Position numbers and translations under genes: made by a program. From positions 47,532,992 through 47,596,991 of the forward strand of contig OX031065.1 in the NCBI GenBank assembly GCA_943736015.1: a DNA stretch of 64,000 bases, in the 5' to 3' direction. Of this stretch, positions 721-29,678 are shown piece by piece (the stretch's first letter is position 1; every line of letters begins with the position of its first letter). The stretch comes from Tridacna crocea. Taxonomy: Eukaryota; Mollusca; Bivalvia; Cardiida; Cardiidae. The notes below the pieces were generated by a model. That model saw only the letters and a list, made by a program, of their open reading frames with translations. It was not told the DNA's origin and made no database searches.

Positions 721-957
721 CTTTATCAAGGGGGTTTTGAATTCTGCAATGAAGCCATAGTTCAGTAAATTCGGCCACAGGAAATGTATCAGGTTGATAA
801 TCAATCCTTTGATATGGGACCCGTCTTCGTCCTGGTCTGCCATAATCATGATTTTACCGTAACGTAACTGTTGGGCAGATTCTTCTGATTCATATTTCTC
901 CAAGAGATGTAAACCAAGGATTTTAATGATGTTCTGTACTTGAGCATTACTGACAAT
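721..957 (-). CDS. TOP2: TOP2-like exon: TOPRIM DxDxD
   Basis: 79 codons include IVSNAQVQNIIKILGL, LRYGKIMIMADQDEDGSHIK, GLIINLIHFLWPNLL and the ending FKTPLIK. DQDED holds the magnesium-binding acids of the cleavage site. Animal TOP2 usually has IMTDQDQDG, so MADQDEDG is a departure. The acceptor is TTGTTTACAG and the donor is AAG|GTTCTG. No further exon was found in 1-720. Confidence 0.97.
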
Positions 958-3900
958 CTGTAAACAAGAAAGTATATAGAAAGTAACCTGTGTGTGGCAG
1001 CAATGGGTGTTAGGCAGCCACTTGCATAAGGCAACCATCACATTTAACCCTTTCCCAAACAACAAAATTTTAGACTGATCCAAGTGAAAGTAGTTGCAGA
1101 TGACAAAACAAAATGCAAGTCAAAAATTAAAATTTGTTTCCAGTAGGGTAGAAAACATTGTGGGAAAAGGAGAAAATGCTGGTTACCAGCATTTTCTCCT
1201 TTTCCCACAGTGTTTTCAAAAGGCTTCTTTTTCAGGGCCGTAAAAAACAGGGGTTGTTTGTTAAAGGGTTACGTTCCAAAATCTTGTTTTAAATATAGAT
1301 GAGGCTGTGTTACCCACTTATTAACCGTTTACCAAACAATCCCTGGTTTTACAACCCCGAGATGGAAGCCTTTTGAAAACATCGTGGGAAAAGGATAAAA
1401 TGCTGGTAACCAGCATTTTCTCCTTTTCCCACAATGTTTTCTAACCTGCTTGAAACAAATTTCACTTTTTGAGTTACGTTTATTTTGTCGTCTGCAAATG
1501 CTTTCAATTTGGACCAGTCTAAAATTTTGTCGTTTGGTAAAGAGTTAAACAATCATGTGACATAAGAACCCTTAGCCTTATTTGCAGTCTGTTCTTTTTT
1601 TTCCTTTTCTGCCATTTGAACATTACTGTGTCAAAATTGACAGTCTGCAGACATTTGAAATCTGATCATTTTAAAATCCGCATTATCCCATTTCACAGTG
1701 GGTTAACTCTTTACCAGACAATCCCGACTTTTAACGACCCTGAGAAAGACACCTTTTGAAAACATTGTGGGAAAAGAAGAAAATGCTGGTAACCAGCATT
1801 TTCTTCTTTTCCCACAATGTTTTCTACCCTTCCCATACCAAATTTCAATTTTTGAGTCGCATTTATTGTCATCTGCAAGTGCTTTCAACTTGGACAAGTC
1901 TACAATTTTGTCGTTTGGTATAGAGTTAAAGTAGATGTAGCTGTAATCTGTAAAATCAGACGTAAATGACTAAAAATAAATACAGAAATCTGAATAGCGT
2001 CAATTTAATCACAACCTGTTTGTGTGAAAACTTTGAAAGTATTGACAATAAAATTTCAAACAATTTATTTACAATTACTTTGGTGAATAACAATCACATA
2101 TTATATACAGTTAAACCTGTGTTAGAGACCATCTGTTTTAAGAGACCACCTGCTTTAAGAGACCACTGTTCTGATGCAAAACCCCTTTTTACATTAACCT
2201 AATATAACCTGTATTTAAAGACCACCTGCTGTAAGAGACCAATTTCAGTACTTCCCTTGAGTGGTCTCTGAATACAGGTTGTACAGTACATGGAAATTTT
2301 TTAAATGTGAACATTTTTACAATTTAAAAAAGTTCACAAACTTTTCTGTCTGTGAATTTTACAAGTATACAGACAAAAAATGAGTGTGTTGATTTCAAAA
2401 ACAGTTCCGTACACACATTTTCTGTAATTGGTAATTTGCAAATTGTTCATCACTCGCATATATCCACTTAAACAGTGTTTGAAAGCGACTTACTTGATTC
2501 ATGCTGGTTTGCCGAACATTAAGTAATTTCCCAGTCACTGGAAACACGCCAAAATGTTTTCGTCCAATTACACTTAGACCTACAAAACCCCAAAGATAAA
2601 TATCTCAACAGTCATCTATTTAACCTTTTACCAAACAACAAAATTTTAGACTGGTCCAAATTGAAAGTACTTGCAGATGACAAATTAAATGTAAATTGAA
2701 AATTAAAGTTTGTTTCCAGCAGGATAGAAAACAGTGGGAAAAGGAGAAAATGTGGGTTACCAGCATTTTCTCCTTTTCCCACATTTTCAAAGGGCTTCTA
2801 TTTCAGGGATGTCAAAACCAGGGATTAGCCATTTAACCCTTTCCCAAACAGCAAATTTTGGACCAGACCAAATTGAAAGCATTTTGCAGATGACAAATTA
2901 ACATTTGCTAAAAAGATGCTTTTTCTATATGATAGGGTAGAAAACATTGTGGGAAAAGGAGAAAATGCTGGTTACCAGCATTTTCTCCTTTTCCCAAAAT
3001 GTTTTCAAAAGGCTTCTATTCCTGACCCGTAAAAAGCAGGGATTGTTTGGGAAAGGGTTAACTCTTTCCCAAACAGCAAAATTTTAGACTGGTTTAAACT
3101 GAAAGCATTTGCCGATAAAAAATTGAAGGTGGCTCAAATAAAAGGATTTGTCCTTGATAGGGAAGAAAACACTGCGGGAAATGGAGAAAATGCTGGTTAC
3201 CAGCATTTTCTCCATTTTCCACAATGTTTTGCAAAGCTCTTGACAGTAAAGTGATAAAAAGTAGTTCCAAAGAGGCTTACATTAGACTGACCAGACTCTA
3301 CAAGACTACAACTATTTTTTATTCAAGTCTAAGAATTTAACCCTTTCCAAAACCATCCCTGGTTTTTACGGGTCTGGAAAAGTAGCCTTTTGAAAACATT
3401 GTGGAAAAAGAAGAAAATGCTGGTGACCAGCATTTTCTCCTTTTCCCACAATGTTTTCTACCCTATCATAAAGAAATCATCTTTTCAGCAAGAGTTGAAT
3501 TGTCATCTGCAAATGCTTTCAATTTGGTCTAGTCCAAAAGTTCGTCGTTTGGGAAAGGGTTAAACACTTTTTAAAGGTCATTTGATCACCAGAAGAACAT
3601 AAATCATCCTGTTACAGATAAATAAATGTTTAAGACAAATATATTTTGTGGTGTCCCTGGTATTGGAGTTGAGCGTCGGCCTCATAACCATAAGGTCCCA
3701 AGTTCGATACAGCTGAGAGGGTGTCAACTTTGGGATTTTTCATTGGCCCAAACAGTCGGCGTGAATACTGGTGTAGTTCCCAGGAAGCAGAATCGAGAGA
3801 GATTAGCGTAAGTCGTAAGAACTTTTTTCTCAATCGATGTTAAAGTATGGTATGCCGATGTGTCTCCTGCGTGCATTAACTCTTTACCACACAATCCTGA

Positions 3901-6900
3901 CTTTTAACACCCCTGTGAAGAAGCCTTTTGAAAACATTTTGGGAAAAGGAGAAAATGATGGTAACCATCATTTTCTCCTTTTTCCCACAATGTTTTCTTC
4001 CCATTCTAAAACAAATTTCAATTCTTTAGTCACATTCATTTTGTCGTCTGCAAATGCTTTCAATTTGGACCAACCTAAAATTTTGTCATCCTCGGATACC
4101 CCGGGGTCTCCCTATTTGCTATGCTACATCGACCCCTGTGACAATTAATTTAATTTCCCTTGCTTTACCACTGGCCGAATGCTGGCTTTTCATTGGTTCC
4201 ATCATCATTTTGTGATGGGCGAGTGGACTGTACGCTATGACGTTTCGTATCGATTTTCGGCGGCTGATTCAAAGTTTTATTAGTCAATTGTCCCAGGGGT
4301 CGATGTAGTGTAGCAAATAGAGAGACCTTGGGGTATCCGAGGATGAAATTTTGTCATTTGGTAAAGAGTTAAGCATGCATGGGTTTGCAGTTGGATTGGT
4401 CAAAATGTTACGCTGTAATATTAATCCGCAATTCATAAAAACAGAGTTACTACCATCCACGCTATGGATTGTCTCTTTTTGATTGCCATTTTTCAATAAA
4501 ATGGCATCAATTTCAAAATGGTGTCATTGAAAGTCATAGACCTACAACAAAAGGAATATAATGTTGTAGTAACTTTCCTGGTGTGTGTATTCACCTTGGC
4601 TGAATAAGAAAATTTTGGCATCGTGCTTGACCTTCGGCCTCACCCAATACCAAATTTTCTCACACTGCTCAAAGTAAATAAAAGTACCAGGAAAGTTAAC
4701 CCTTTCCCAAACAAGCCCTTGCTTTTATGTGTCTGCAATACAAGTCTTTTGAAAACACTGTGGGAAAAGGAGAAATTGCTCGTTATGAGCAATTTCTCCT
4801 TTTCCCACAGTGTTTTCTGCCCGTTTGGATAATTTTCTGCCATTTTTATGAAAGTTGAAATTGTCGTCTGCAAGCTCTTTCAGTTTGGAAGAGTCTACAA
4901 TTTGTTGTTTGGGAAAGAGTTAATACAACATGATATTCCGTATGTACATGTGTATATCATACCAGCAAGTGCCGTTGCCTTGGCTGAATCCCCTTCTGTA
5001 ATAATAAGAGTACATTTGTGAGACTGTTTGGTTCCCGCATCTGTGGCATCCTCTAGTTTGGTGATTCCCTTTATTCTACCACTTGATTTTATAGGAGCTA
5101 CTTTTCTTCTTAAAGTCTTCTCAACAGATTCAATGATACGTTGAACAAGGCCAGTTTTTTCAATCTGAAATAGAATTAATCCACTATGATAAACGGTTTG
5201 GGAAAACTGCTTGATGGAATATAGGATTACATTTTTGGTTACCAAGCAACCCTTTATCCTTTATATCAGCGTTTATGTATTATCATCTTTATCCATGAGA
5301 TGACTAAAATTGTATGAGGTGAGCCTTGGCGAGCGTCAAATACATTTTAGTCAATGAGTTTGACAAAAATGATTTAAAATCAACAAAATGTGAGATCCTA
5401 TTTATCTCAAAAAACAAATGACAGACAGAACTAGAGCTGTCACTGAATGTGACTTAATATCCCGGCCAGCACTTTAACAGAAACAGGCAATTACTAGTAT
5501 TTTGTACACAGACGGACACATCGACACACCAACAGAAACACAGAATGATGGACATATGGATGGACAGACAGGCTGATTCCAGTATATTCCCTGAAAACAT
5601 TTCGTTTTGCGGGGGTATAAAAATATCCCACACCTTTCACACGTCCATGTCTACGTTGTAGTTTGGTTTCAAATATGTACATACACAAGTAGAAAGTTAT
5701 GTTTCATTTACACTGAAGGAATAGTGAAATATTTTAGAGAGGGAATAAGCACACCTATTCCTGAGATAATACTGATTTTTAGAGACTTTCACCGCATTTC
5801 TTGGTTTTTATTTAACATGAAAATCAAAAACTTTCCATGTGTACATGTCATAGCAACAGTGACCTCATTTTTCCTCGAAACCGTGTAACAGTACAAATTC
5901 CTGCACAAAGTGTGGTTGGTTTTTTATGGTTTCACAGACCAATGACTGGAAAGTGACCAGAACAATTTTAGACTGGTTCAAATTGCACTTGCAGACGGCA
6001 AAATAAGCGTATCTCAAAAATTGAAATGTGTTTCCAGCCGGGTGGAAAACATTGTGGGAAAAGGCGAAAATGCTGGTTACAAGCATTTTCTCCTATTCCC
6101 ACAATGTTTTCAAAAGGCTTCTATCTCTGGGACATAAAAACCATGATTTGTTTGGTAAAGGGGTTTAATACACTGCCCTAGGAGGTTTTCTGAAAGTGAC
6201 AAACAACTTTATGCAAAAGGACCTTTAACCCTTTCACGCACAATGACAACTTTTGACGACCCTTGGAAAGAAGCCTTTTGAATACAATGTGAGAAAAGGA
6301 GAAAATGCTGGTAACAAGCATTTTCTCCTTTTCCCACAATGTTTTCTACCCTATCAATAAAAAATTGCACCATTTGATCCCCACTGATATTGTCATCTGC
6401 AAATACTTTCAATTTGGACAAGGCTAAAATTTTGTCGTCTGGTAAAGGGTTAACAAAATTTTTTGATATGGAGAAAGGTTTCACCCTTTTACAGACAAAC
6501 CAAAGCATTGGTGCAACATGTTATTAGTGGTCTACAAATGATCTAGATGTAAACAGGCCTAAAATTTTGTTTTGAATTCAGACTTGAGTGAAATCTTGTT
6601 ATTTGGTAAAACGTTAAACCTTTACTAGATAATTAAATTGTAAACTTGTCAAAATCTGAAACAGTTTCAGATGTCTTGTTAACCCTTTACAATCCCGACT
6701 TTTAACGACTGTCCCAAAGGACAAATTTCAGAATGTCTGTACTTCACACAGGTACATCTGGCCATAAGTTCATCGATGCGATAGATGACATTGAAGAATA
6801 AAGGAGAAAGCCCTGATTATAAACATTTTTATCTCAATTATTTTGTTAGAAAACAAAAGTTGTAGGGAATAACTTAAAGAAAGCATGAGGAAAAGTTGCA

Positions 6901-9900
6901 ATTCTTGCGCACTGCATTTCCAAATTTTGCAACAAATAAGTGCACCATATTTCACGTCATTCCTACTTAAGATGACAAAGTTACGTCCGGACAAGGATGA
7001 AATACTATAAAACTGAAGATCAAAGGGCAAATAACTCAAAATTCTTGCCAGGAAGAATTATGGTTCTTGTGCACTGCACTGCGTAATTTTTCAACAACAA
7101 TGCATATCAAGTATGAAGTTGTTCAGGCAAGAGATGACAAATTTATATTCCAGAAAAGCAGAAAATGCTGTAAAAATGACCATCAAAGGGAAATAACTAT
7201 AAGACAGCACGAGGTAGAGTTATGGTCCTTTTGCACTGCACTCTGTATTATTGCAGCAAACATAAAAGCTAAGTTTCGAGACAATCTGACTGGACATGAC
7301 AATGCTCTGGACAAGCATGAAATGCTATAAAAGTAGAGATTAAAGGGTAAATTACTCAAAATTCATGCTAGGAAGCGTTATGGTTCTTTCGCACTACTCA
7401 GTGTTATTGCAACAAACACAAACGCCAAGTTTCAAGTCAATTGAACTGGAGATGACAAAGCTAAGCTCCAGACAAAGAACTGGACACCACCCACCTGTAA
7501 TAATAACATCTAGTCCATCATCTAGCTAAATTGAATAGATCCATTTCTTTGAAAAATACACATATTTGTTGTGATGGGCAAAACTTAGTAATGGAAAGGA
7601 AAGTTAGAGTAAAGAGCAAAAAATAAATAGGACAAATTGTTTGTTTCAGTATGTGATCAAAGTTTCTTTCATCGAGTGGAAAGCGAATACCGTATTTTAA
7701 CTTGTGGCTTTGCCACTCATGAAAATACATGTATAGCCATGCAGTTCACTCAAAAGAAATTTCAAACATACACCAAAAAAGACAATTATCCTCTATGTCA
7801 ATTACCTCATCAATAAAACTTTTTGTAAATTTACAGGTCGATCCAAAGTGGGCTGGTTGAAGAGTCAATGTTTCCTTGGTCTGCATGTCAAATTTCGGGT
7901 TCTCTATCAGGCAGTTCACAAACACCCAAACCTGATTTTTTATCTGTAGAGGCAAATATATCAACTCTTAACCCTTGACCCCATAAGGCATTTCTATGGT
8001 ATCTAAAATTGACCCTAAATAACAGCAAGGATGAAGCAGTTTCTTATACGTATATAAGACCTTTTGAAAGCACAGAAAACATTGTGACAAAAGGTGAAAT
8101 TGCTCGTGACGACAATGTTTTCCAAAGGCTTCTACAAGCAATGCGTAGAAATGAGTATCTATGGAGTAAGGGGTCAACCCTTTCCTAAACAATGAATTTT
8201 GGACTCTTCCAAACCAAAACAGTTTGCAGACGACAGTTTTAGATATTGAGAAAATGGCAGAAAGTTCTCAAAAAGGGTAGAAAACACTGTGGGAAAAGGA
8301 GAAATTGCTCGTTTTCACACAGTGTTTTCAAATGATTTTTACTGCAGACACGTAAAAACCAGGGTTTGTTTGGGAAAGGGTTAAAGCACCAATAACACTC
8401 AAAAGATATTTTCAGTTTAAAAATAAGACCCAAACAAGTGTAATATCAAGGTTGATTTTTGACCAAACTGTCTCAGCAAAGCTGACAGTGTAGATCAAGG
8501 ATTCATCTACAAGAGCTGATTTACTCGGGCCCTAAAACTATCAAAAGTTGTGAAAGGTCCTAAATTGTTCTCCTTCTCCCACAATGCTTATCCCCTTTTC
8601 AAAAGAAATTTCAATTTTGGAATAACTTTTATTTTAAAAAAGCTTTCCATTTGGACAAGTCGAAAAATATGACATTTGGTAAATGATTAACTAAAGTGTG
8701 TTTTATTCTATTTTCCACTTCACTTACCACAGATGGTTTTATTGTTTCACTAAAATTGGATTTTTTCATGATAATTGGTGTTAGGGACTCCACCAGATTA
8801 TCCGTAACCAATTTTACATGCGTCCCTCCCTGAAAGAAAATTATATAAAGATATGGTCAGATAAATAATATGTCAAGATTCAAACTGCCAATTGAGTTGT
8901 CCTATAAAACCTGAAATTTTAGAACAAATTCAGTTTAAACTTATTAATTCTACATCTATTGAGAAACTATTGGTAAGATTACAAATTCTTTAAGTTTCAT
9001 GGAAATCTGACAATAAAATGCAGACTTTATCGCGTAAACAAGAAATGCAAATTTTTAATTTTGAAATGGCTACTTTTCCAATACTGTTTGATAGATGTTT
9101 TTTTCAAAATCAATAGGATTGAAGGTATTGATGAGATAAACAAACTGTGCAAGTTTCATGGAAAATTGACCACAAATGTAGACTTCATCGCGTAAACAAG
9201 AAATGAAAATTTTCAACTTAAAATCGCTACTGTTTCCATACTGTTTGTTGGGTTTTTCTCAAAATCAATAGGATTCAAGGTATTGATGAGATAAACTGTG
9301 CAAATTTCATGGAAAACTGACCACAAATGCAGGCTTTATAGTGTAAACAAGAAATGAAAATTTTCAACTTGAAATCGCTACTTTTTCCATACTGTTTTTT
9401 GGGTTTTTCTCAAAATCGGTAGGGTTGAAGGTATTGATGAGGTAAATAAACTCTGCAAGTTTCATGGAAAACTGACCCCGAATGTAGGCTTTATCATGTA
9501 AACAAGAAAGAAACCAACAGATGGACAGACAGACGAAAGGACAGGCGGTGTAAACCATGCCATGACATAAGCTCTGCTGGCTTTCAGCTAGTAGAGCTAA
9601 AAGATTATGCCATGTTGACAAAAAGCTTCAGGGGAGGTTAGACTAAAAAATGTAAAAGAGTAACAACTACATCCACTCTGTAAGTATGAAATCAGTCAAA
9701 CTTACCCTTTCAGTATAAATACTGTTTACAAAACTTGTTTGTCTGAAGCCATCATCACTTGGGGTCACTGCCACCTCCCATCTACCATTGATTACTTTGT
9801 GAGCCACCACTGGGTTAGAGTCTTCACCTGATTCCGGACCGATGTACATATTGACATAATCTTTGAAATTACTGATCTGAAGCCGAAAACAAAACAAAAA

Positions 9901-12900: not shown

Positions 12901-15900
12901 CTTCTTTCTTTGATGATGTTTCTACCACAAACTTCGATGAGAAGATATTGCACAATTTGGCACCAAATCCATGTCTGCCACCTGATTTTGATGAAAACAG
13001 AAATGTGTAAAAATGTTAATCCTTTACTCCATAGATACTCATTTCTACCCATTGCTTGTAGGAGCCTTTGGAAAACATTGTGGCAAAAGGTGAAATTGCT
13101 CGTGACGAGCAATTTCACCTTTTGCCACAATGTTTTCTATGCTATCAAAAGGTGTCATATACACATAAGAAATGGCTGTCATTTAGGGTCAGTTACAGAC
13201 ACCATAGAAATGCCTTATGGGGTAAAGGGTTAAACCTTATGCAATTTCCATGTTAACATATCAAATCTTACAGATGCAAGTCATTCACTAGAAGAATGAC
13301 AAAATAAAATACTTTTGCCACCAAACACAAATTGAAAGCATGCAACGGACGAATCAAATTATGAGATCTGTCTTCAAAAAGGTACAATAATTGCATTGGA
13401 GTTTGACGCTGTCTGAACAGCTTAGGTTATATCAAAAGTAAGTGCATCTAGGCATGTGTTTCCTGGCTTTCTAGCACCAGTACTGACATAACATTCTTTC
13501 CAAGTCACTCACTATTTTTTTTCACATGCATCGGAAAAAGAGAGGCAAAAATTCACCAAAAAGTTTACCTCAACCAGGTAACAAACACACAACTACAAGG
13601 TGACAAGTTGAGGTACACGGGCAGGCTGGAAAGGTAGAAAACACTGCAGGAAAGGCAGAAAAGCTTGTGACGAGCGGTTTCTCCTTTTCTATAAGCTTTC
13701 TTTTCTCAATTGTTAAAAGACAGAATAGTTTGGAAGATAGATAAAAGGACACTAACCTGTTATTCTTTTCATCGTATCATCGTAATTACTGGACGTCAAT
13801 AAATGGCCAAATATCAGTGTAGGTATATACATCTTGTACTTTTTATGCTTCACAACCGGAATTCCTTTACCATCGTTCCATATTCGTATCATGTTTTCTG
13901 ATCTGAACGAAATAAAGTTCTAATCTTAACTTTTTAAGGCACAATTCAAAATTTTAGCAACCTTGAGGAAAGAGTCTTTTAAAAACATGTTAATGACCCT
14001 GAAAAAGAAGCCTTTTAAAAACACTGTAGGAAAAGGAGGAAATGCTGGTAACCAGCATTTCCTCCTTTTCCCACAATGTTTTCTACCCTACCCAAAGCCA
14101 ACTGCCAAATTTGAATCATTTTATTTTGCTGTCTCGAAATGCTTTCAATTTGGACCAATCTAAAATTTTGTCCTTTGGTGATGAGTTAATACTAGTAGTT
14201 AAAAACTAGGGCAAGTTTGAAGTAAATATCTTTTCTAGCGAACAAAATATCATCAATTGTTTAATTAACCCATTACCACACAATCCCTACTTTTGACGCC
14301 CCTGAGAAAGAAGCCTTTTGAAAACACTGTGGGAAAAGAAGAAAATGCTGGTAACCAGCATTTTCTCCTTTTACCTCAGTGTTTTCTACGCTTCCCAGAA
14401 CAAATTTCAAATTTTCAGTCTCCTATATTTTGTCGCCTGCAAATGCTTTCAATTTGGACCAGTCTAAAATTTTCTTGGGTGGTAAAGAGTTAAAGTTTCT
14501 GTACAACAACAATATAGTGTGGATGCAGCAGACTACCACAGTGCCATTGCAATACAATGAATGTCGAAAATGACTAAACCCTTTCCCAAACGACAAATTT
14601 TAGATTCTTTGAAACTGAAAGAGTTTGCAGACGACAATTTCAAATTTGATAAAAATGACAGGAAGTTCTCCAAACAGGTAGAAAACACTGTGGGAAAAGA
14701 AGAAATTGCTCGTTATGAGCAAATTTCTCCTTTTCCCACAGTGTTTTCAAAAGACTTGTACTTCAGACACGTAAAAACAAGGGTTTGTTTGGGAAAGGGC
14801 TAAAAAGGCCAGCCCGCATAGCTCAGTTGATAGAGCAATAGGACTTGTGAACATGATGTTTGGGGTTACTTGAGGGTGTGGGTTTGATTCCCATGACTAG
14901 CCATCTAAAATAACCACTAGTATTTAAAATATGAGGTTAAACTGAGATCCCATGTGATGATGCTATACACCAAGCATGTTAACCCTTTACCAAACGACAA
15001 AATTTTAGACTCGACCAAACTGAAAGCATTTGCAGACAACAAAATAAATGTAGCCCAAATGATGATTTTGTCTTTAACAGGATAGTAAACATTGAGGGAA
15101 AAGGAGAAAATGCTGGTCACCAGCATTTTCTCCTTTTCCCACAATGTTTTCAAAAGGCCTTTTTGTTAGGGTCGTTAAAGATATTAAAATTATTTGGTAA
15201 AGGGTTAAAGAACCTGACATAATTTAGGATAAGTTTTGTCTTGTACCTGCACTATCCTCTAAAACAATACTAGCAGCCTTCAGGGGATATACCCATATGG
15301 GCAACCAGCGGCAATGATAAAGAAAAGCAAATTTGATTATAGACATAAACATAGACATCCTTTCTTGACGTAAGTTAACCCTTTACTCCATAGATAGTCA
15401 TTTCTACGCATTGCTTGCAGGAGCCTTTGGAAAATATTGTGGCAAAAGGTGAAATTGCTCGTGACGAGCAATTTCACCTTTTGCCACAATGTTTTCTATG
15501 CTATCAAAAGGTGTCATATACACATAAGAAACAGCTGTTATTTAGGGTCAGCTAGAGATACCATAGAAATACCTTATGGGGTAAAGAGTTACTACAGCTT
15601 CTCGTCATTGATACATAATATATACATGATACATTTACACACAGCAGTTACGTAAGGTTGAAAATATTCTCGCTGGAAGAAAGCATACACATATAAAAAT
15701 CGTGTTCATGGCTATAGACCTTGCCTAATCAAAATGAAAAATAAAATTTTTCATTGATAACTGTTTACCAAATTACCCAAATTTAGACTGGTCCAAAATG
15801 GGAAAACATATGACAATTAAAAATTACTTCAACCCATTACCTCATAAGGTATTTCTATGGTATCTCCAACTGACCCAAAATAACAGCAAGAATGAAGCTG

Positions 15901-18900
15901 TTTCTTATGTGTATATGACACATTTTGATAGCATATAAAACAATGTGACAAAAGGTGAAATTGCTCGTCACCAGCAATTTCACCTTTTGCCACAGTGTTT
16001 TCCAAAGGCTCCTACAAGCAATGCGTAGAAATTAGTATCTATGGAGTAAAGGGTTAAGAAACAAAAAGGAAAAGCTTCTCTCTTTCAAAGAATGAAAAAC
16101 ATTGCCTGAAAAGAAGAAAACACTGGTTACCAGTATTTTCTTAATTTCCAACAAGACTTCTGGGTATTTCCTCAATCAAAACAGCTAAAATTGTGTATTT
16201 CATCAGGTGTCTTATATGAAAATGTGAAAAATATAATTTTCGATAAATCACTTACGGATCAATGTCTATCTTTATGCATGTCATCTTTTTGTCATTGATT
16301 TTGTTGTCTGCTGCGTTAACTGTCAAATACAAAGATTGACTGTTTACCAAATAAAACAATTTCATACTTGTTAAAATGTTAATTATTTGCAAACAACAAA
16401 TAAAAAGTCTCTCAACGAATATAAGTTGTCCATGAAAAGGTATAAAACATGTGGAAAATGGATGAAATAAAAATTGTAATACTAGCATTTTCTACTTTTC
16501 CAACAGTGTTTACAAATTCAAAAGCTTTCTTTCTCTAGGTCATTAAATATTTGGGATTGTGTGGTGAAGGCATAACTGTTTCCCATGTGACAAAATTTTA
16601 ACTTTATCTACATTCAAACTATTTCCAGAAAACAAACTAAATGTATCTTTAAAAACCAAAATATGATCTGGAAGGGCAACAACATTTCCTCTTATTCCCA
16701 AAATGTTTTAACTCATTACCACACAATCCCTACTTTTGACGCCTCTGAGAAAGAAGCCTTTAGAAAACAATGTGGGAAAAGGAGAAAATGCTGGTAACCA
16801 GCATTTTCTCCTTTTTCAACAATGTTTTCTTCCCTTCACAAAACAAATTTCAAATTTTCAGTCACTTTTATCTTTTCATCTGCAACTGCTTTTGATTTGG
16901 ACGTTTGTCCTAAAATTTTGTCGTTTGGTAACCAGTTAAAAAGTTTTTTTCCCCCAAGGTTTTTAAATTTCATCATCAAGTGGTAACAGTTGAAAGGTCT
17001 TCTAACAAGCCTGATAAGCTATTGCAAATTTACACACAAATTTTCTTTTCCATTTTCTTCTTTTCCCACAATATTTTCAAACGCTGTAATATCTTTGTAA
17101 ATTAATCCTTTACCACACAATCCCGACTTTTAAGGACCCTGAGAAAGGTGCCTTTAGAAAACATTGTGGCAAAAGGAGAAAATGCTGGTAACCAGCATTT
17201 TCTCCTTTTCCCACTATGTTTTTTTACTCTTCCCAACATAAATTTCATTTTTTGAGTCATGTTTAGTTTGTTGTCTGCAAGTGCTTTCAATTTGGACCAG
17301 TTTAAGATCTGTTGCTTGGCAAAGAGTTAAAACATGGGATTATTTGAAAAATTTTAAACCCTTACCTAAAATTTCATCGAAGATTTTATACAGCCCAGGG
17401 ACGTAGGAGATTTCCTTTTGAATCATCTTCTTCCCTTGATTGTCCAGCACCCACATCCACTGAAAATACAGCAGTTAATTCTATACCAGAGGTACGGAGA
17501 CAGACGGACGGACCGACTGATTGATTGGTGTTAAACACTGTTTTCAGCATTATTTCAGTTATATCATGGCAACCATTGCACCTATCTATGCTTTCCTGAG
17601 CTTATTTCACCAGAGCTCTGCACAATATTCTTTCAAAGCCACTGGCTGCTTTCCCACATAACCATGGTCAACACAATGATCAGCAGTGATAGAGGAATGA
17701 ACCCTATTACAATGATTACCATGAATCATTGGAAAGAAATTGGCCAAGCAGTGGATCCAATTGAACCAGCGACCTATTCTCAAGTCTTGCATGCTATATA
17801 GACTGAGAGATAAAGAATTGGTACTGAAGGTTCAAAGAGTTACATCCCTTTATTTAATTTCATGACCAAGATTACAATTCTCATAAGAGTTTTTTTTTGT
17901 CAAAAAAGCCTTTATTTAACTCTTGAATTTAACTCTTCCAAACTATCTCTATCTTTCATGACTCTGTGAAAGAGGCCTTTTGAAAACATTGTGGGAAAAG
18001 AAGAAAATGCTGGTAACCAGCATTTTCTCTTTTTCCCACCATGTTTTCTATCCTTCCCAAAAGAAATTTTTATTTTTTTTAAGAATCATTTTAATTTTTG
18101 GCGTCTGCTAAGGCTTTCAATTTGGAACAGTCTAAAATTCCTTTATCTGGTAAAGAGTTCAGAGAAGAAACAACAGAAGTATAGATAAAAGAGTAAAACA
18201 GTAGTCTTTTCACTAGTAGACAAATTTTGGACTTGTTTAAATTGAAAGCATTTGCCGATGACAAATTATATGTTGCTCACATAATTTTTTTTTTAATTGA
18301 ATAGGAGTTAAACACTATTTCAACAGCTTAGATCACATCATGGCGGTCAGTTAGTCTCAATAATGAGACGCCCCAGTGATCTTTTTCATATTTGGACATT
18401 TACTGTACACTGGAGGCGACCAGTCGAAAAGTAACATTGCCTTTGGGGACAGTTATCCGTACTAGGCGGTCAGTGCACCTATAAATATGTTTCCTGGCTT
18501 TCTCACACAACTTTCTTTCCAAGTCATTGACAACTGTCCTGACATGCATTAGAGGTGTGACAGCTGCTGCTGAATGCAGAATAAAAAGTTTCCTGGTTTT
18601 CGCAGATCTAAGCATTTTGAAAAGCCTAAAATATTCGAAGCAAGATACAAAAAAAATCTTGACCATCACACTCTTATAATGATGCTACCTTTGTATCTTT
18701 TTCTACAGAACTAATATAGGTATCTGGACGGAGTAAAATATGTTCCAACTGAGTCTTCATCTGATATATATCCTCGACTGTTGTCTTCCAGCGTACATGT
18801 GAACAGGCATGTGGAGACTCCAATTGTGCATGTAAAGGTAAAATCAGCCATGGCAAATTCTGAAAATGATGCAGAGTAAGATTTTTTTTTTTCCCTTAGA

Positions 18901-20569
18901 TCTAGTATCACAAAAATCCTTTTGAACTCTTTACCACACGATCCTGACTTTTAATGATCCTGAAAGAGGAGGCTTTTGAAAACATTGTGGGAAAAGGAGA
19001 AAATGCAGGTTACCAGCATTTTCTCCTTTTCCCAAAATGTTTTCTACCCTTTCCAAACCAAATTTCAACTTTTCAGTCAAATGTATTTTGTTGTCTGCAA
19101 ATGCTTTCAATGTGGACCAGTCGATAATTTTGTTGTTTGGTTAAAGAGTTAAAAAACTACAGGCTTCATTAAACCTTTCACAACACAATCCTGTATTTGG
19201 ACCACGCTTCAAATACATCCTGAGAAAAAGGAAAATGCATGCCACCAGCCTTTTCTTTTTTGCCGACATCAGACACAAATCCAATTATCTGACTGAGGCA
19301 ATTTCAATTTTTTGTCTGCAAATGATTAGTGATTTGGATTAATTTAGCCCTTTCCCAAACAATCCCTGGTTTTCTTGACCCTGAGAAGGAAGCCTTCTGA
19401 AAACATTGTCGGAAAAAGAGAAAATGCTGGTACCCAGCATTTTCTCCTTTTCCTACAATGTTTTCTTCCCTTCCCAAAAGAAATTTCAATTTTTGAGTAA
19501 CATTCATCTGCAATTTTTTAAGCTTTCAATTTGCACTCTAAAATCATGTTGTTTTGGTGATTTACGGATGTTTCGGTAACAGACGAGTTCTGTAACATAG
19601 ACTTATAGTGTAAATCAATTGGATGTTTCGGTAACAAAGCAATTATATATGTGACATTCTTTACACCCGATGCATGGCTGTATTTTTATCAAACCTTCGT
19701 TATTTCAAACCTTAATTTGTAATTTCGATTATGTTTCATAAATAATATCTTTGTTATGTACCCAATTTCATGCTGTATTTATTGACCATGTGGAAATGCC
19801 TATTAAGCGAAAATGGGTAGAGAATGAAAAAATAAAAGGTTGGAACCTATCTATCAATGGGTAAAAAGTGTAAAAGTAAAAGGTGTGAACAAAACAAAGC
19901 CATACATTAGGTGTAAAGAACGTCACAGAACATAAATACAATATAATTGCTTTGTTACCGAAACATCCAATCGATTTACTCTATAAGTCTATGTTACCGA
20001 ACTTGTCTGTTACCGAAACATCTGTCACCTGTTTTGGTAAAAAGAGTTAATTGAAATTTTTGTAGTCTGATGAAGAGTTAAAGTAATCTTATCTTAGGGT
20101 CGAAAACTATGTCTCTTGAATACAACTGTTCTTATCAATAACCTTATTTAAATAAATAAATAAATAAATAATGATTCCTAATGATTTCAATAAGTGACGA
20201 AAAATCACCTAAAGAACAACATTCATATTTTGCCTAAATCGCTTGCAGAAGAAAAGTCTTTGATCATTATCATCTCAATAAAAAAAAATGTCTTTCTTGC
20301 TAAAAAAAAAAATTACTTCTAAATGTGATTTTTGAAATTGGTCGATTTTCGTATGAACATTTATTCTCTTGTAATTTACTAGTTGGTGAAAAGACCTGGG
20401 GCCGAATGAAGACTTTAAAGTATACGTAACATTGAAGACGTGACCATACCGGATTTTTTAAAAGTTGGGAGTAACATCGAGCAAGCGCCAATGACTGGCA
20501 ATATCTCAGTTTATAATGATTGCCAAACAATGATATGTAACGTTTCTGTAAAGTAAGAATATTCCTCAT
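721..20569 (-). CDS. TOP2: DNA topoisomerase II-like gene, 13 exons, 3' part outside window
   Basis: Type IIA topoisomerases pass one DNA duplex through a transient double-strand break using ATP. Read on the minus strand, thirteen exons join in phase with AG/GT boundaries: 20569-20380 (tentative), 18777-18689, 17459-17366, 16319-16256, 13902-13757, 12981-12884, 10980-10768, 9876-9706, 8829-8728, 7943-7806, 5164-4963, 2579-2494 and 957-721. They total 1830 bp, or 610 codons. Seen in order are the GHKL ATPase motifs (EILVNAADNK, NDGKGIP, GGRHGFGAK), the transducer QTK lysine (FDMQTKE), TOPRIM EGDSA and DxDxD (DQDED). Breakage-reunion and C-terminal parts lie left of the window. Several near-invariant positions differ from animal TOP2, so I read it as a divergent paralogue, possibly mitochondrial. 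Whether it is expressed is unknown, but no stop or frameshift breaks the exons. Confidence 0.93.
1048..1268 (+). mobile_element. Hairpin MITE T1
   Basis: Left TTAA 1044-1047, right TTAC. Core palindrome intact. Confidence 0.85.
1325..1544 (-). mobile_element. Hairpin MITE T1
   Basis: TTAA at 1321-1324 and 1545-1548. Confidence 0.87.
1707..1925 (-). mobile_element. Hairpin MITE T1
   Basis: TTAA at 1703-1706 and 1926-1929. Both core arms carry the matched change to AAGAAG / CTTCTT. Confidence 0.87.
2105..2285 (+). repeat. Degenerate tandem AAGAGACCACCTG repeat
   Basis: Short imperfect units around AAGAGACCACCTGCT recur four to five times, with an inverted ending (GTGGTCTCTGAATACAGG). Confidence 0.6.
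2494..2579 (-). CDS. TOP2: TOP2-like exon: TOPRIM, altered PLRGK motif
   Basis: This short exon completes Gly from the exon above, then reads LSVIGRKHFGVFPVTGKLL and NVRQTSMNQ. It matches the TOP2 segment GLxVxGRDxYGxxPLRGKxLNV, but with PVTGK in place of PLRGK and RKHFG in place of RDxYG. The acceptor is TTTTGTAG and the donor is CAA|GTAAGT. The phase fits both neighbours, which is strong support for a real exon. Confidence 0.93.
2624..2832 (+). mobile_element. Hairpin MITE T1
   Basis: Left TTAA 2620-2623. The right end is decayed and runs into the next copy. Confidence 0.8.
2837..3057 (+). mobile_element. Hairpin MITE T1
   Basis: TTAA at 2833-2836 and 3058-3061. The right TTAA is shared with the next element. 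Confidence 0.86.
3062..3245 (+). mobile_element. Hairpin MITE T1, 3' truncated
   Basis: Starts at the shared TTAA (3058-3061). The core has matched A-to-T changes in both arms. The right terminus is missing. Confidence 0.75.
3341..3559 (-). mobile_element. Hairpin MITE T1
   Basis: TTAA at 3337-3340 and 3560-3563. Confidence 0.86.
3640..3840 (+). mobile_element. SINE-like repeat family E
   Basis: tRNA-like boxes (TATTGGAGTTGAGCGTCGG, AAGTTCGATACAG) are followed by a body ending CTCAATCGATGTTAAAG. The same tail recurs at 28945-28993. Confidence 0.6.
3880..4368 (-). mobile_element. Hairpin MITE T1 carrying a Mutator-like MITE
   Basis: TTAA at 3876-3879 and 4369-4372. Interrupted by 4087-4345. 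The core arms carry the matched change to ATGAT / ATCAT. Confidence 0.86.
4087..4345 (+). mobile_element. Mutator-like MITE, 9-bp target duplication
   Basis: Terminal repeats start CATCCTCGGATACCCC. The target AAATTTTGT is at 4078-4086 and 4346-4354. 259 bp, noncoding. The superfamily is inferred from the 9-bp duplication only. Confidence 0.85.
4700..4919 (-). mobile_element. Hairpin MITE T3
   Basis: TTAA at 4696-4699 and 4920-4923. It ends 43 bp from the TOP2 exon at 4963. Confidence 0.87.
4963..5164 (-). CDS. TOP2: TOP2-like exon: start of TOPRIM, EGDSA
   Basis: 67 codons include IEKTGLVQRIIESVEKT, GRIKGITKLEDATDAG and CTLIITEGDSAKATALA. The Glu of EGDSA is the catalytic TOPRIM acid. The linker before GRIKG looks slightly shorter than in vertebrate TOP2 by eye. 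The acceptor is CTATTTCAG and the donor is GCTG|GTATGA, leaving one base. Confidence 0.97.
5429..5621 (+). mobile_element. Pearl-like element family F, short copy
   Basis: Begins AACTAGAGCTGTCACTGA and ends near GACAGACAGGCTGATTCCAG and GGGGGTATAAA. It shares both ends with copies at 11.1 and 41.8 kb. Confidence 0.65.
5940..6165 (+). mobile_element. Hairpin MITE T1, decayed
   Basis: The left terminus is lost. The core and right end (GGTAAAGGGG) are visible. Confidence 0.7.
6229..6449 (-). mobile_element. Hairpin MITE T1
   Basis: TTAA at 6225-6228 and 6450-6453. Confidence 0.86.
6735..7490. repeat. Pearl-like tandem core repeats, about 160 bp
   Basis: GGGCAAATAACTCAAAATTC-type blocks followed by TTATGGTTCTTGTGCACTGC recur near 6870, 7025, 7185 and 7345. 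Termini are not resolved. A truncated MITE start (ACCCTTTACAATCCCGAC, 6683 on) precedes it. Confidence 0.65.
7806..7943 (-). CDS. TOP2: TOP2-like exon: transducer with QTK loop
   Basis: 46 codons include IKNQVWVFVNCLIENPKF and DMQTKETLTLQPAHFGSTC. The QTK lysine contacts the ATP gamma-phosphate in this family. The acceptor is CCTCTACAG and the donor is GAG|GTAATT. Confidence 0.97.
7972..8173 (-). mobile_element. Hairpin MITE T2
   Basis: TTAA 7968-7971, right TCAA 8174-8177. The second half of the core is deleted. It starts 25 bp from the TOP2 exon acceptor at 7944. Confidence 0.8.
8178..8380 (+). mobile_element. Hairpin MITE T3, core shortened
   Basis: Right TTAA 8381-8384. The palindrome is collapsed at GCTCGTTTTCACACAGTG. 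Confidence 0.78.
8555..8687 (-). mobile_element. Hairpin MITE T1, right half only
   Basis: TTAA 8688-8691 follows GACATTTGGTAAATGA. It lies next to the TOP2 exon 8728-8829. Confidence 0.6.
8728..8829 (-). CDS. TOP2: TOP2-like exon: transducer
   Basis: 34 codons begin GGTHVKLVTDNLVESLTPII and end TIKPSV. The segment follows FVNSIxT in all TOP2. The acceptor is TTTCTTTCAG and the donor is GTG|GTAAGT, phase 0. Confidence 0.96.
8930..9625 (-). mobile_element. Pearl-like element with four ~155-bp tandem cores
   Basis: TTTCATGGAAAACTGACC and TAAACAAGAAATGAAAATTT blocks recur near 8990, 9150, 9300 and 9455. Then come a decayed ACAGACAG microsatellite and the end block GGCTTTCAGCTAGTAGAGCT. That block is the reverse of the start of the 46.4-kb element. 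Confidence 0.75.
9706..9876 (-). CDS. TOP2: TOP2-like exon: transducer
   Basis: 57 codons run from ISNFKDYVNMYI through VINGRWEVAVTPSDDGF to QTSFVNSIYTER. The HRWEV-FVNSI block is a TOP2 signature. The acceptor is GCTTCAG and the donor is AGG|GTAAGT, phase 0. Confidence 0.97.
9990..10130 (+). mobile_element. Hairpin MITE T1, left part decayed
   Basis: TTAA 10131-10134. It keeps the right half of the core and arm. Confidence 0.7.
10267..10423 (+). mobile_element. Hairpin MITE T1, right core arm deleted
   Basis: TTAA at 10263-10266 and 10424-10427. Deleted from the centre of the hairpin to the right terminus region. Confidence 0.8.
10768..10980 (-). CDS. TOP2: TOP2-like exon: end of GHKL, start of transducer
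   Basis: 71 codons include TWTSNMTQ, GPDFTCVTFYPDLAKFGV, INKDLLALFTRRAYDVSA and the ending LNGKTLP. They align with the TOP2 segment that starts TWxNNM. The acceptor is TTCATTGTAG and the donor is CCT|GTTAGT, both phase 0. Confidence 0.97.
11033..11479 (-). mobile_element. Hairpin MITE T1 hosting a pearl-like F element
   Basis: The left end CCCTTTACCACAC runs to CATTGTGA. After 11434 it resumes with AAGGAGAAAATGCTGG and a decayed right end. Confidence 0.75.
11094..11434 (+). mobile_element. Pearl-like element family F
   Basis: AACTAGAGCTATCACTAAAC opens it. A GACGGATAGACAGACAG microsatellite-like run and GTATACCCCCTCCACTTC close it. 341 bp, noncoding. Confidence 0.78.
11500..11620 (+). mobile_element. 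Hairpin MITE T1 fragment
   Basis: The core (GTGGGAAAAAAAGAAATTGA) and decayed right arm only. Confidence 0.55.
11910..12037 (-). mobile_element. Hairpin MITE T1, right half
   Basis: Ends at the TTAA 12038-12041, which also starts the next copy. Confidence 0.65.
12042..12242 (-). mobile_element. Hairpin MITE T1, right end lost
   Basis: Left TTAA 12038-12041. Stops at the CTTTCAATTT block. Confidence 0.75.
12270..12295 (+). repeat. (ATTG)n microsatellite
   Basis: Six to seven units form the tail of the minus-strand SINE C copy. Confidence 0.85.
12484..12705 (+). mobile_element. Hairpin MITE T1 inside a SINE
   Basis: TTAA at 12480-12483 and 12706-12709. 222 bp. Host is the SINE C of 12265-12800. 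Confidence 0.9.
12884..12981 (-). CDS. TOP2: TOP2-like exon: ATP lid
   Basis: Encodes GGRHGFGAKLCNIFSSKF, then VVETSSKKEGLHFQQ. The glycine-rich ATP lid is kept (GxxGxGxK), but the usual GGRNGYGAK is GGRHGFGAK. The acceptor is AAATCAG and the donor is CAG|GTTTGA. A T2 hairpin MITE ends 39 bp upstream of the acceptor. Confidence 0.96.
13020..13229 (+). mobile_element. Hairpin MITE T2
   Basis: TTAA at 13016-13019 and 13230-13233. The core GCTCGTGACGAGC is perfect. Confidence 0.9.
13385..13570 (-). mobile_element. SINE family B, partial
   Basis: The body block (GCATGTGTTTCCTGGCTTTC) and TTTACCTCAACC are present. The tRNA-like head is missing. Confidence 0.65.
13757..13902 (-). CDS. TOP2: TOP2-like exon: GHKL G1 box
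   Basis: Encodes SENMIRIWNDGKGIPVV, then KYKMYIPTLIFGHLLTSSNY and DDTMKRITG. NDGKGIP is the ATP-binding G1 box. LLTSSNYDD is a TOP2 signature. The acceptor is CGTTCAG and the donor is ACAG|GTTAGT. Phases agree with both neighbours. Confidence 0.96.
13930..14185 (-). mobile_element. Hairpin MITE T1 with a small internal duplication
   Basis: TTAA at 13926-13929 and 14186-14189. The CCTTGAGGAAAGAGTC block is repeated as CCCTGAAAAAGAAGCC. Matched arm change GAGGAAAT / ATTTCCTC. Confidence 0.8.
14269..14489 (-). mobile_element. Hairpin MITE T1
   Basis: TTAA at 14265-14268 and 14490-14493. Confidence 0.88.
14579..14799 (+). mobile_element. Hairpin MITE T3
   Basis: Flanks read CTAA on both sides rather than TTAA. 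Confidence 0.82.
14813..15330 (+). mobile_element. SINE family A, split by a hairpin MITE
   Basis: The head carries an A-box (TAGCTCAGTTGATAGAGC) and a B-box (GGGTTTGATTCCC). Then come the AACTGAGATCCCATGTGATG central domain and, after the MITE 14983-15204, the tail domain to CAACCAGCGGCAATGA. Confidence 0.85.
14983..15204 (+). mobile_element. Hairpin MITE T1 inside a SINE
   Basis: TTAA at 14979-14982 and 15205-15208. 222 bp. Host is the SINE A of 14813-15330, and uninterrupted SINE A copies show the single TTAA. Confidence 0.92.
15379..15588 (+). mobile_element. Hairpin MITE T2
   Basis: TTAA 15375-15378, right TTAC 15589-15592. Core perfect. Confidence 0.87.
15833..16053 (-). mobile_element. 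Hairpin MITE T2
   Basis: TCAA 15829-15832 and TTAA 16054-16057. Confidence 0.85.
16256..16319 (-). CDS. TOP2: TOP2-like exon: GHKL N-box
   Basis: Encodes VNAADNKINDKKMTC then IKIDIDP. This is the Bergerat-fold N-box, where the Glu and Asn that activate water and bind magnesium lie at the joint with the previous exon. The acceptor is TTTGACAG and the donor is GATCC|GTAAGT. A decayed hairpin MITE begins about 20 bp upstream of the acceptor. Confidence 0.96.
16340..16570 (+). mobile_element. Hairpin MITE T1, strongly decayed
   Basis: GTTTACCAAATAAAAC and GGGATTGTGTGGTGAAGG mark the ends. The core has lost most pairing. Confidence 0.6.
16712..16935 (-). mobile_element. Hairpin MITE T1
   Basis: TTAA at 16708-16711 and 16936-16939. 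Confidence 0.86.
17106..17326 (-). mobile_element. Hairpin MITE T1
   Basis: TTAA at 17102-17105 and 17327-17330. Confidence 0.87.
17366..17459 (-). CDS. TOP2: TOP2-like exon: ATPase domain
   Basis: Encodes WMWVLDNQGKK and YVPGLYKIFDEIL, matching the TOP2 strand-loop and the helix leading to the catalytic EILVNAADN motif. The acceptor is TTTTCAG and the donor is TTTTAG|GTAAGG. It ends with one base that completes Val with the next exon. A hairpin MITE lies 39 bp beyond the donor. Confidence 0.96.
17515..17815 (-). mobile_element. SINE family C copy
   Basis: Has the tail (ATTG)n, body and reversed tRNA-like head as at 45.5 kb. It lies just upstream of the TOP2 exon 17366-17459, inside the intron. 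Confidence 0.8.
17933..18157 (-). mobile_element. Hairpin MITE T1
   Basis: Left TTAA 17929-17932, right TTCA. Confidence 0.82.
18205..18308 (+). mobile_element. Hairpin MITE T1, left part
   Basis: Has the arm AAATTTTGGACTTGTTTAAA to the GATAGG position, then SINE B sequence. Confidence 0.6.
18308..18560 (-). mobile_element. SINE family B, partial
   Basis: Contains GTTTCCTGGCTTTCTCACAC and the CATGCATTAGAGG stretch. The head is missing. It starts inside a truncated hairpin MITE (18205-18308). Confidence 0.6.
18689..18777 (-). CDS. TOP2: TOP2-like exon: ATPase domain start
   Basis: Encodes EDIYQMKTQLEHILLRPD then TYISSVEKDTK, the conserved opening of the TOP2 ATPase domain. The usual TYIGSVE is TYISSVE here. 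The donor after 18689 is AAG|GTAGCA. The acceptor CAG at 18778-18780 has a poor pyrimidine tract. The exon could instead begin at 18784 (ACA ACA GTC) or further upstream. The reading frame stays open upstream, so the left boundary is the least certain part. Confidence 0.9.
18927..19148 (-). mobile_element. Hairpin MITE T1
   Basis: Right TTAA 19149-19152, left TGAA. Confidence 0.84.
19174..19345 (-). mobile_element. Hairpin MITE T1, decayed
   Basis: The ends and a CATGCCACCAG core are recognisable. Confidence 0.55.
19348..20046 (-). mobile_element. Hairpin MITE T1 hosting foldback element I
   Basis: The left end CCCTTTCCCAAAC is intact. The right end AAAAAGAG and TTAA (20047-20050) resume after the 471-bp insertion. 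Confidence 0.8.
19559..20029. mobile_element. Foldback element I, 9-bp target duplication
   Basis: TGTTTTGGT at 19550-19558 and 20030-20038. Long terminal inverted repeats hold GGATGTTTCGGTAACA twice per arm and CTTTACACC further in. The middle is AT-rich and noncoding. Confidence 0.85.
20050..20379. other. No gene recognised; (AATA)n at 20150-20170
   Basis: AT-rich intron sequence of the TOP2-like gene if the candidate first exon is right. Contains a short AATA run and nothing else recognised. Confidence 0.5.
20380..20569 (-). CDS. TOP2: Candidate first coding exon of TOP2-like gene, mitochondrial-type leader
   Basis: The ATG is at 20569-20567. The 63 codons contain many Arg and Lys, many Tyr, Leu and Ser, and no Asp or Glu (begins MRNILTLQKRYISLFGNHYK). 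This is the usual composition of a mitochondrial targeting presequence. The donor after 20380 reads ACTA|GTAAAT and leaves one base. The next exon starts with two bases, so the phase fits and the joint reads SPT-I-EDIYQ. An alternative donor at CCCCAG|GTC would pair with an acceptor at 18785. Linking this ORF to the gene is an inference: no transcript evidence, and other first exons are possible. Confidence 0.5.
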
Positions 20570-27732: not shown

Positions 27733-27764
27733 ATTATTCTATAAAGAAGCTAATATCATTCACT

Positions 27765-28993: not shown

Positions 28994-29036
28994 TTAATAT
29001 GCTTAGGCTGCTAGGCGAGTCTCGCCGATGTTCTGC

Positions 29037-29543
29037 GGACAGTGTAAATCAAGATCAGACGGCACAGAACGTATAGAGTGTAGAACGTGACCGTGTAGAT
29101 CAAGATCAGACTGCACAGAACGTGTAGAGTGTAGAACGTGACAGTGTAGATCAAGATCAGACTGCACAGAACGTGTAGAGTGTAGAACGTGACAGTGTAG
29201 ATCAAGATCAGACTGCACAGAACGTGTAGAGTGTAGAACGTGACAGTGTAGATTAAAATAAGACTGCACAGAACGTGTAGAGTGTAGAACGTGACAGTGT
29301 AGATCAAGATCAGACTGCACAGAACGTGTAGAGTGTAGAACGTGACAGTGTAGATCAAGATCAGACTGCACAGGACGTGTAGAGTGTAGAACGTGACAGT
29401 GTAGATCAAGATCAGACGGCACAAAACGTGTAGAGTGTATAGTGTAGAACGTGACAGTGTAGATCAAGATCAGACTGCACAGAACGTGTAGAGTGTAGAA
29501 CGTGACAGTGTAGATCAAGATCAGACTGCACAGAACGTTCAGT
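29037..29543. repeat. 51-bp minisatellite, about 10 units
   Basis: The unit contains CAGTGTAGATCAAGATCAGA, CTGCACAGAACG and TGTAGAGTGTAGAACGTGA. Units are nearly identical. One carries an extra AGTGTAT. The length is a multiple of 3, so two minus-strand frames stay open (171 and 137 codons); I do not call them genes. Confidence 0.95.
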
Positions 29544-29678
29544 CTGATCTTTGATCTACACTGTCCGATAAGGAGGTGTATCTTTCTCTCAAAAATACCT
29601 AAGTTACACTTGCAATATTTGGGTTTTCACGGTCGAACTGAAAATTTTATTTTAGTTATTTAGCAAGACAAGAGTTAA

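Follow-up and report, generated by a model that had tools for sequence, protein, structure and literature searches.

A divergent second topoisomerase II gene in the bivalve Tridacna crocea, with a candidate mitochondrial leader

Introduction

The use of type II topoisomerases by animal mitochondria is disputed. The available text of a 2019 review (PMC6514783) accepts TOP2A/B in mitochondria, with no targeting sequence identified, whereas that of a 2022 study (PMC9638942) reports no TOP2 in the mitochondria of human cells; PMC6163646, in its accessible part, refers to two reports that place Top2b in the organelle. A TOP2-like gene at the left edge of a 64,000-nucleotide stretch of the T. crocea genome (the window; C10:47532992-47596991, in an assembly of 1.05 Gb and 31 contigs) raises the question of whether a bivalve may carry a separate gene for such an enzyme. 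The initial annotation had proposed here a second, fast-evolving TOP2 for a special compartment such as mitochondria; an extra TOP2 of C. elegans bears the label "putative mitochondrial." If a gene exists apart from nuclear TOP2, carries a leader of its own, and lacks the nuclear tail, the dispute would become open to a genetic test.

Gene structure and domain content

The minus strand carries all four motifs with unusual residues that drew attention to the locus (TYISSVE starting at 18721, GGRHGFGAK at 12982, PVTGK at 2541, and MADQDEDG at 843). A tblastn search with a hand-typed human TOP2A sequence located TOP2 exons between window positions 18787 and 718 and more of them on C10 outside the window, as far as 47509941. 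A splice model based on GT-AG borders and homology, in which GC donors were permitted with a penalty, comprises 22 homology-supported exons and 1139 codons (amino acids) with 0 stops, and all 21 of its 21 introns are GT-AG. Twelve of the 22 exons lie inside the window (18787 to 721, minus strand, no stop) and are numbered 2 to 13, the numbering from 1 to 13 counting a candidate exon 1. The rest of the gene was located as ten more exons outside the window (C10:47531066-47509944), up to 23 kb beyond its left edge, which encode the end of the TOPRIM region, the DNA gate, the tower, and the coiled coil. What had been described as a complete run of TOP2 exons is therefore a run of 12 homology-supported exons of a gene that is incomplete in the window; of the span assigned to it, the left end, 721, coincides with the final base of exon 13, while the right end, 20569, marks the A of a candidate start codon in an exon that is only predicted. 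Exons 3 to 13 below follow the splice model, and residues listed as kept also follow the alignment.

20450..20569, minus strand: candidate exon 1, MRNILTLQKRYISLFGNHYKLRYCQSLALARCYSQLLKNP, predicted without homology support; donor CCG/GTATGG, phase 0; putative mitochondrial leader
18689..18859, minus strand: exon 2, with YISS (G52S); predicted acceptor TTTTCAG/AAT at 18859, phase 0
18787, minus strand: start of TOP2 homology in exon 2, at KTTVEDIYQ (tblastn and splice model)
17366..17459, minus strand: exon 3, ATPase domain, E87 kept
16256..16319, minus strand: exon 4, ATPase domain, N91 and N95 kept
13757..13902, minus strand: exon 5, ATPase domain, N120 and SSN148-150 kept
12884..12981, minus strand: exon 6, GGRHGFGAK ATP loop with N163H and Y165F, its first G completed across the intron
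10768..10980, minus strand: exon 7, end of the ATPase domain and start of the transducer, a boundary assumed from human numbering
9706..9876, minus strand: exon 8, transducer
8728..8829, minus strand: exon 9, transducer
7806..7943, minus strand: exon 10, transducer with the QTK loop, Q376 and K378 kept
4963..5164, minus strand: exon 11, start of TOPRIM with EGDSA, E461 and D463 kept
2494..2579, minus strand: exon 12, PVTGK with L486V and R487T, K489 kept
721..957, minus strand: exon 13, the final one inside the window, with the MADQDEDG metal site, D541/D543/D545 kept

Six Pfam models matched the spliced protein, five of them over their cut-offs (DNA_topoisoIV at 1.1e-106, TOPRIM_C at 9.1e-38, DNA_gyraseB, Toprim, and HATPase_c) and one, HATPase_c_3, under. 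GHKL ATPase, transducer, TOPRIM, TOPRIM_C, and DNA_topoisoIV regions are found in one chain, and a chance match of the predicted gene body to TOP2 is excluded. The core of the encoded enzyme, as read from the model, consists of ATPase, transducer, TOPRIM, winged helix with Tyr805, tower, and coiled coil; compared with canonical animal TOP2 (human TOP2A/TOP2B and the second T. crocea locus described below), all catalytic-core domains, Tyr805, and the metal site are kept.

A second TOP2 locus and the origin of the pair

Genome-wide, PF00521 (7 matches) and PF16898 (4 matches) detected only two loci, on contigs C10 and C18; the Toprim model matched an exon on C18 and one on C1 (TOP3A) and missed that of the window gene itself, and a divergent further copy could escape searches of this kind. 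By its sequence, the C18 gene is the canonical TOP2, being 71.6% identical to human TOP2A (822/1148), while the window gene is 52.2% identical to human TOP2A (593/1136) and 53.1% identical to the C18 gene (603/1135). Twenty of 21 introns are common to the two T. crocea genes in position and phase, the last one lying in a gapped linker; the simplest origin for the pair is therefore duplication of a gene that already contained introns.

The best tree (six sequences, 1029 columns: the window gene, C18, and human, fly, yeast, and Arabidopsis sequences, the last four typed by hand) placed the window gene as sister to C18, with support of 84.8/75, 87 with a mixture model, and an AU value of 0.899. 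The AU test, with the alternative placements set on a fly-outside backbone, also kept the window gene at the base of C18 plus human (0.305), with fly (0.159), and outside animals (0.0945). Placements as sister to human (AU 0.0169), yeast, or Arabidopsis were rejected, as were five trees uniting fly and C18. Viral contigs were scanned for outgroups twice: the first scan gave 108 stretches with 0 confirmed, and the second gave 61 stretches with 1 confirmed, at 28% identity, which was left out of the tree. The branch leading to the window gene is 0.82 long versus 0.165 for C18, and most of the change therefore occurred in the window gene. A second, fast-evolving TOP2, as initially annotated, is thus borne out, and the search for another TOP2 locus led to the canonical gene on C18; that the window gene is a true paralogue of it appears nearly certain.

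Between the window gene and C18, codon positions differ by 0.37/0.25/0.61 over 1135 codons, and 63 of 199 shared fourfold sites are identical, which is near saturation. Silent sites at this level could not be used to date the duplication. Together with the saturated fourfold sites, the codon-position asymmetry shows amino-acid constraint on the predicted protein over the history of the window gene, which is likely an intact functional gene.

Changes at conserved residues

An alignment in human numbering covered 32 sites taken as functional. At 28 of them all six enzymes are identical, and the kept sites include Y34, E87, N91, K168, Q376, K378, E461, D541/543/545, R804, Y805, and I856; the catalytic Tyr, the metal-binding acidic residues, the ATPase Glu/Asn, and the QTK loop of TOP2 are all found in the window gene. 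N163H, Y165F, and R487T are changed in the window gene alone among the six enzymes, and site 739 varies generally. G52S, N163H, Y165F, L486V, R487T, and T540A fall at sites invariant in the five other enzymes, four of which were typed by hand. The E at 544 is ordinary, and the typed yeast and Arabidopsis sequences carry H there. By motif, the changes lie in the ATP loop (N163H, Y165F), the PLRGK strand (L486V, R487T), and DGLKPGQRK (P724V, G725S). The H at position 163 is presumably the residue of gyrase, and N163H and R487T could lower the activity of the enzyme.

Of the 360 sites at which the other five sequences all agree, the window gene is changed at 49, P724V and G725S among them. Control counts, made at sites invariant in the other four sequences with the window gene excluded, were 16/376 for C18, 18/378 for human, 47/407 for fly, 50/410 for Arabidopsis, and 92/452 for yeast. 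The count is weak as proof of oddity, with fly and Arabidopsis comparable; in this alignment it is the kind of changed residues that is unusual, the number alone not being extreme. Even if the enzyme is nuclear, the locus offers a natural experiment in which N163, R487, P724, and G725, fixed in the five other TOP2s compared, are changed in an enzyme that retains the catalytic tyrosine and metal site.

The C terminus

Canonical animal TOP2 has a C-terminal domain (CTD), and none was recognized in the window gene. The hand-typed human C-terminal part matched the end of the coiled coil at both loci (1.4e-17 in C18 and 2.3e-7 in C10). Past that point it found three more stretches in C18 (E < 0.01; end of the last one, C18:1516780) and none in C10. 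Eight pieces of the C18 CTD, searched against the 27 kb downstream of the window gene, gave a best minus-strand match of E 0.057, 22 kb away; the best match overall, at E 0.001, was on the opposite strand and probably belongs to another gene, a shuffled control reached 0.57 at best, and no convincing exon of a hidden downstream CTD was seen. Reading past the GT of the last exon, the frame ends in EVRS and a stop, adding VRS. Four acceptor-plus-frame candidates of 30-39 amino acids, none CTD-like, lie within 12 kb downstream, and a very divergent or short last exon may exist.

A scan for K-K/R-x-K/R found one basic cluster (KKYKM) in the 1206-amino-acid window model that includes candidate exon 1, versus four in the C18 core without its CTD. 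The C-terminal domain with a nuclear localization signal that marks canonical nuclear TOP2 was not recognized for the window gene, and the predicted product is a core-only type IIA topoisomerase without a recognizable C-terminal nuclear domain.

The N terminus and a candidate leader

Upstream of KTTVEDIYQ the conserved frame is open to 18895 and contains no ATG. As exon 2 has no in-frame ATG before the conserved TVEDIYQ, an upstream exon is needed; conserved residues including Y34 precede the first in-frame Met, which suggests that translation begins further upstream. One of four AG sites has a good pyrimidine tract (10/13), that at 18859, and it requires a phase-0 donor. For C18, the simplest start of translation is MANAATGDGKQKKKAK in the homologous exon. 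The window gene has an ATG in a strong context (GCCATGGCT) at 18851 on the minus strand, 64 bases before the conserved frame and offset by one base from the reading frame of the TOP2 body, and its reading, CCATGGCT, resembles the C18 start, ACATGGCT.

Candidate exon 1 ends in a phase-0 donor with 6 of 9 consensus bases (5 to 8 in the 21 modeled donors). The 40-amino-acid reading, MRNILTLQKRYISLFGNHYKLRYCQSLALARCYSQLLKNP, has 7 K/R, 0 D/E, a helical moment of 0.50, and an R-3 motif, RCY/S. From the same ATG, a second phase-0 donor at 20396 gives 58 amino acids with 10 basic and 0 acidic residues. The 241 bases around the exon have a single match in the genome, which is the exon itself.

As a control, we collected 226 ATG starts with a phase-0 donor after 30-90 codons from 348 kb of strand at both loci. 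Leader-like starts were defined, after the candidate had been seen, as those whose first 40 residues include no acidic and six or more basic ones; they numbered 13 of 226, and 2 of the 13 had an R-3 motif, the candidate being included in both counts. The 13 correspond to 0.0374 per kb of strand, or 0.06 expected in the 1.7 kb upstream (0.01 with the R-3 motif); in 11 kb upstream, two were seen versus 0.4 expected, the other one at 27734. Helical moments of the 13 ranged from 0.34 to 0.59 and did not single out the candidate. By codon score, which rests on 40 codons and has little power, candidate exon 1 ranked 188 of 226, below all 28 coding pieces; on a synonymous-only score it ranked 162 of 226, with 2 of the 28 coding pieces at or below it. 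Its codon usage is not coding-like, which argues mildly against a leader, and positions 20569-20450 are a fair candidate for one and not a finding.

Where the enzyme may work

Our best explanation, to which we give a little less than an even chance, is a CTD-less core TOP2 paralogue directed by its leader to the mitochondrial matrix; that the product is mitochondrial we likewise put at somewhat under even odds. The enzyme would be translated from the upstream exon and use ATP for double-strand passage, in decatenation and relaxation, separately from the chromosomal role of its paralogue. It would most likely reside in the matrix, its leader being read from 20569-20450 and removed by cleavage at RCY/S. 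This reading is favored by the lack of a C-terminal nuclear domain, by a frame entered from an upstream exon, and by a presequence-like, phase-compatible leader; it is disfavored in that the leader could be chance and its codon usage is not coding-like. A TOP3A-like gene on C1 (first exon at ~33872285, minus strand) has an open frame before its MVKVLNVAEKNDAAK start, with two more in-frame ATGs, and reads MPMQLFCRRFFASVPT, a short, presequence-like leader; this upstream start resembles the alternative start described for TOP3A in the available text of PMC6514783. The animal thus seems to keep the known mitochondrial decatenase, so none is missing and the window enzyme would be an addition, a duplex decatenase beside the type I decatenase TOP3A. 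The fuller proposal, held a shade more tentatively, is a dedicated mitochondrial type IIA topoisomerase gene formed from a CTD-less TOP2 duplicate that gained its leader by recruiting an upstream exon, with the old nuclear start left out of frame and the product acting as a duplex decatenase beside TOP3A. Unusual mitochondrial inheritance, to which the initial annotation linked the gene, found no support here; COX1 has one match only in the assembly.

A nuclear or germ-line/meiosis-specific paralogue with another first exon, its divergence reflecting specialized expression and not an organelle, is a reading that we take seriously at appreciably under an even chance. The gene body and paralogy fit it, chromosomes can be reached by a protein without a CTD, the chance control and codon scores leave the candidate leader unproven, and the extra TOP2 genes of C. 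elegans (described in the available text of PMC12151872) are comparable; weighing on the other side are the C-terminal nuclear domain that was not recognized in C10 and the single basic cluster against four in the C18 core. The out-of-frame ATG 64 bases before the conserved frame and the codon usage of candidate exon 1 would also suit a gene in decay, with CCATGGCT as a possible ancestral start, the CTD lost, the 5' end broken, and the leader a product of chance; in a variant, a one-base assembly error near 18851 would restore an ordinary leaderless start. We consider decay unlikely, because 1139 codons without a stop or frameshift, GT-AG borders at 21/21 introns, and codon-position asymmetry, though most change lies on the gene's own 0.82 branch, mean that any decay can only be recent. 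That the window gene is the species' single canonical TOP2, an assembly duplicate, or a contaminant has a negligible probability, with nothing in its favor, and is refuted by the two loci: the canonical gene is separate, on another 40 Mb contig, and 53% identical, with the window copy on the longer branch, and the two genes share intron positions and, by eye, an intronic repeat.

Relation to known enzymes

Like the predicted window enzyme, the truncated TOP2B that Low et al. (2003) described in bovine heart mitochondria, according to the available text of PMC6514783, is of type IIA, lacks the CTD, and has been proposed to be mitochondrial; it is, however, a form of the nuclear TOP2B for which no targeting sequence has been identified, whereas the window gene is separate. 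C. elegans has three TOP2 genes (TOP2, CIN4, and R05D3.12) according to the accessible part of PMC12151872, and CIN4 and R05D3.12 are extra invertebrate TOP2 genes like the window gene, likened by description only. The mitochondrial TOP2s of kinetoplastids (the kinetoplast enzyme is treated in the available text of PMC10719067) and algae (in that of PMC6514783) are type IIA enzymes for mitochondrial DNA topology, as proposed here, but belong to other eukaryotic groups and are set apart by their descriptions; the window gene ties to animal TOP2 in the best tree, with an AU value of 0.0945 for a position outside animals. TOP1MT and TOP3A of animal mitochondria are nuclear-encoded topoisomerases too, but type I (PMC9638942, available text). 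No second mollusc TOP2 is described in the titles and shown abstracts of the freely accessible papers among the matches listed.

Other features of the window and assembly

About 48 sites in the window, from 1169 to 63840 and spaced by ~1.3 kb, carry a palindrome whose ~33-nt arms flank a single central base (GAAAACATTGTGGGAAAAGGAGAAAATGCTGGT plus its complement); with <=3 mismatches allowed, its core gave 94 strand matches, which make up 46 pairs and 2 single hits (mean of 0 in shuffled sequence). Folding of one typed copy gave -51.7 kcal/mol (z -15), and no Rfam family matched at gathering score. By eye, the palindrome lies within a longer unit with ends like TTAACCCTTTACC, which is also visible in translations around the C18 gene and is probably a non-autonomous mobile element. 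Contig C31 is mitochondrial, and its mitochondrial genes recognized by eye are all on one strand; its 29,009 bases are large for animal mitochondrial DNA. Elsewhere in the window, a long open frame at 43008-44648 on the plus strand contains an UNC-93-like transporter exon (PF05978, 4.3e-15), and a tandem repeat at 29003-29626 on the minus strand, open in two frames with units of about HSTRSVQSDLDLHCHVL, has the look of a minisatellite.
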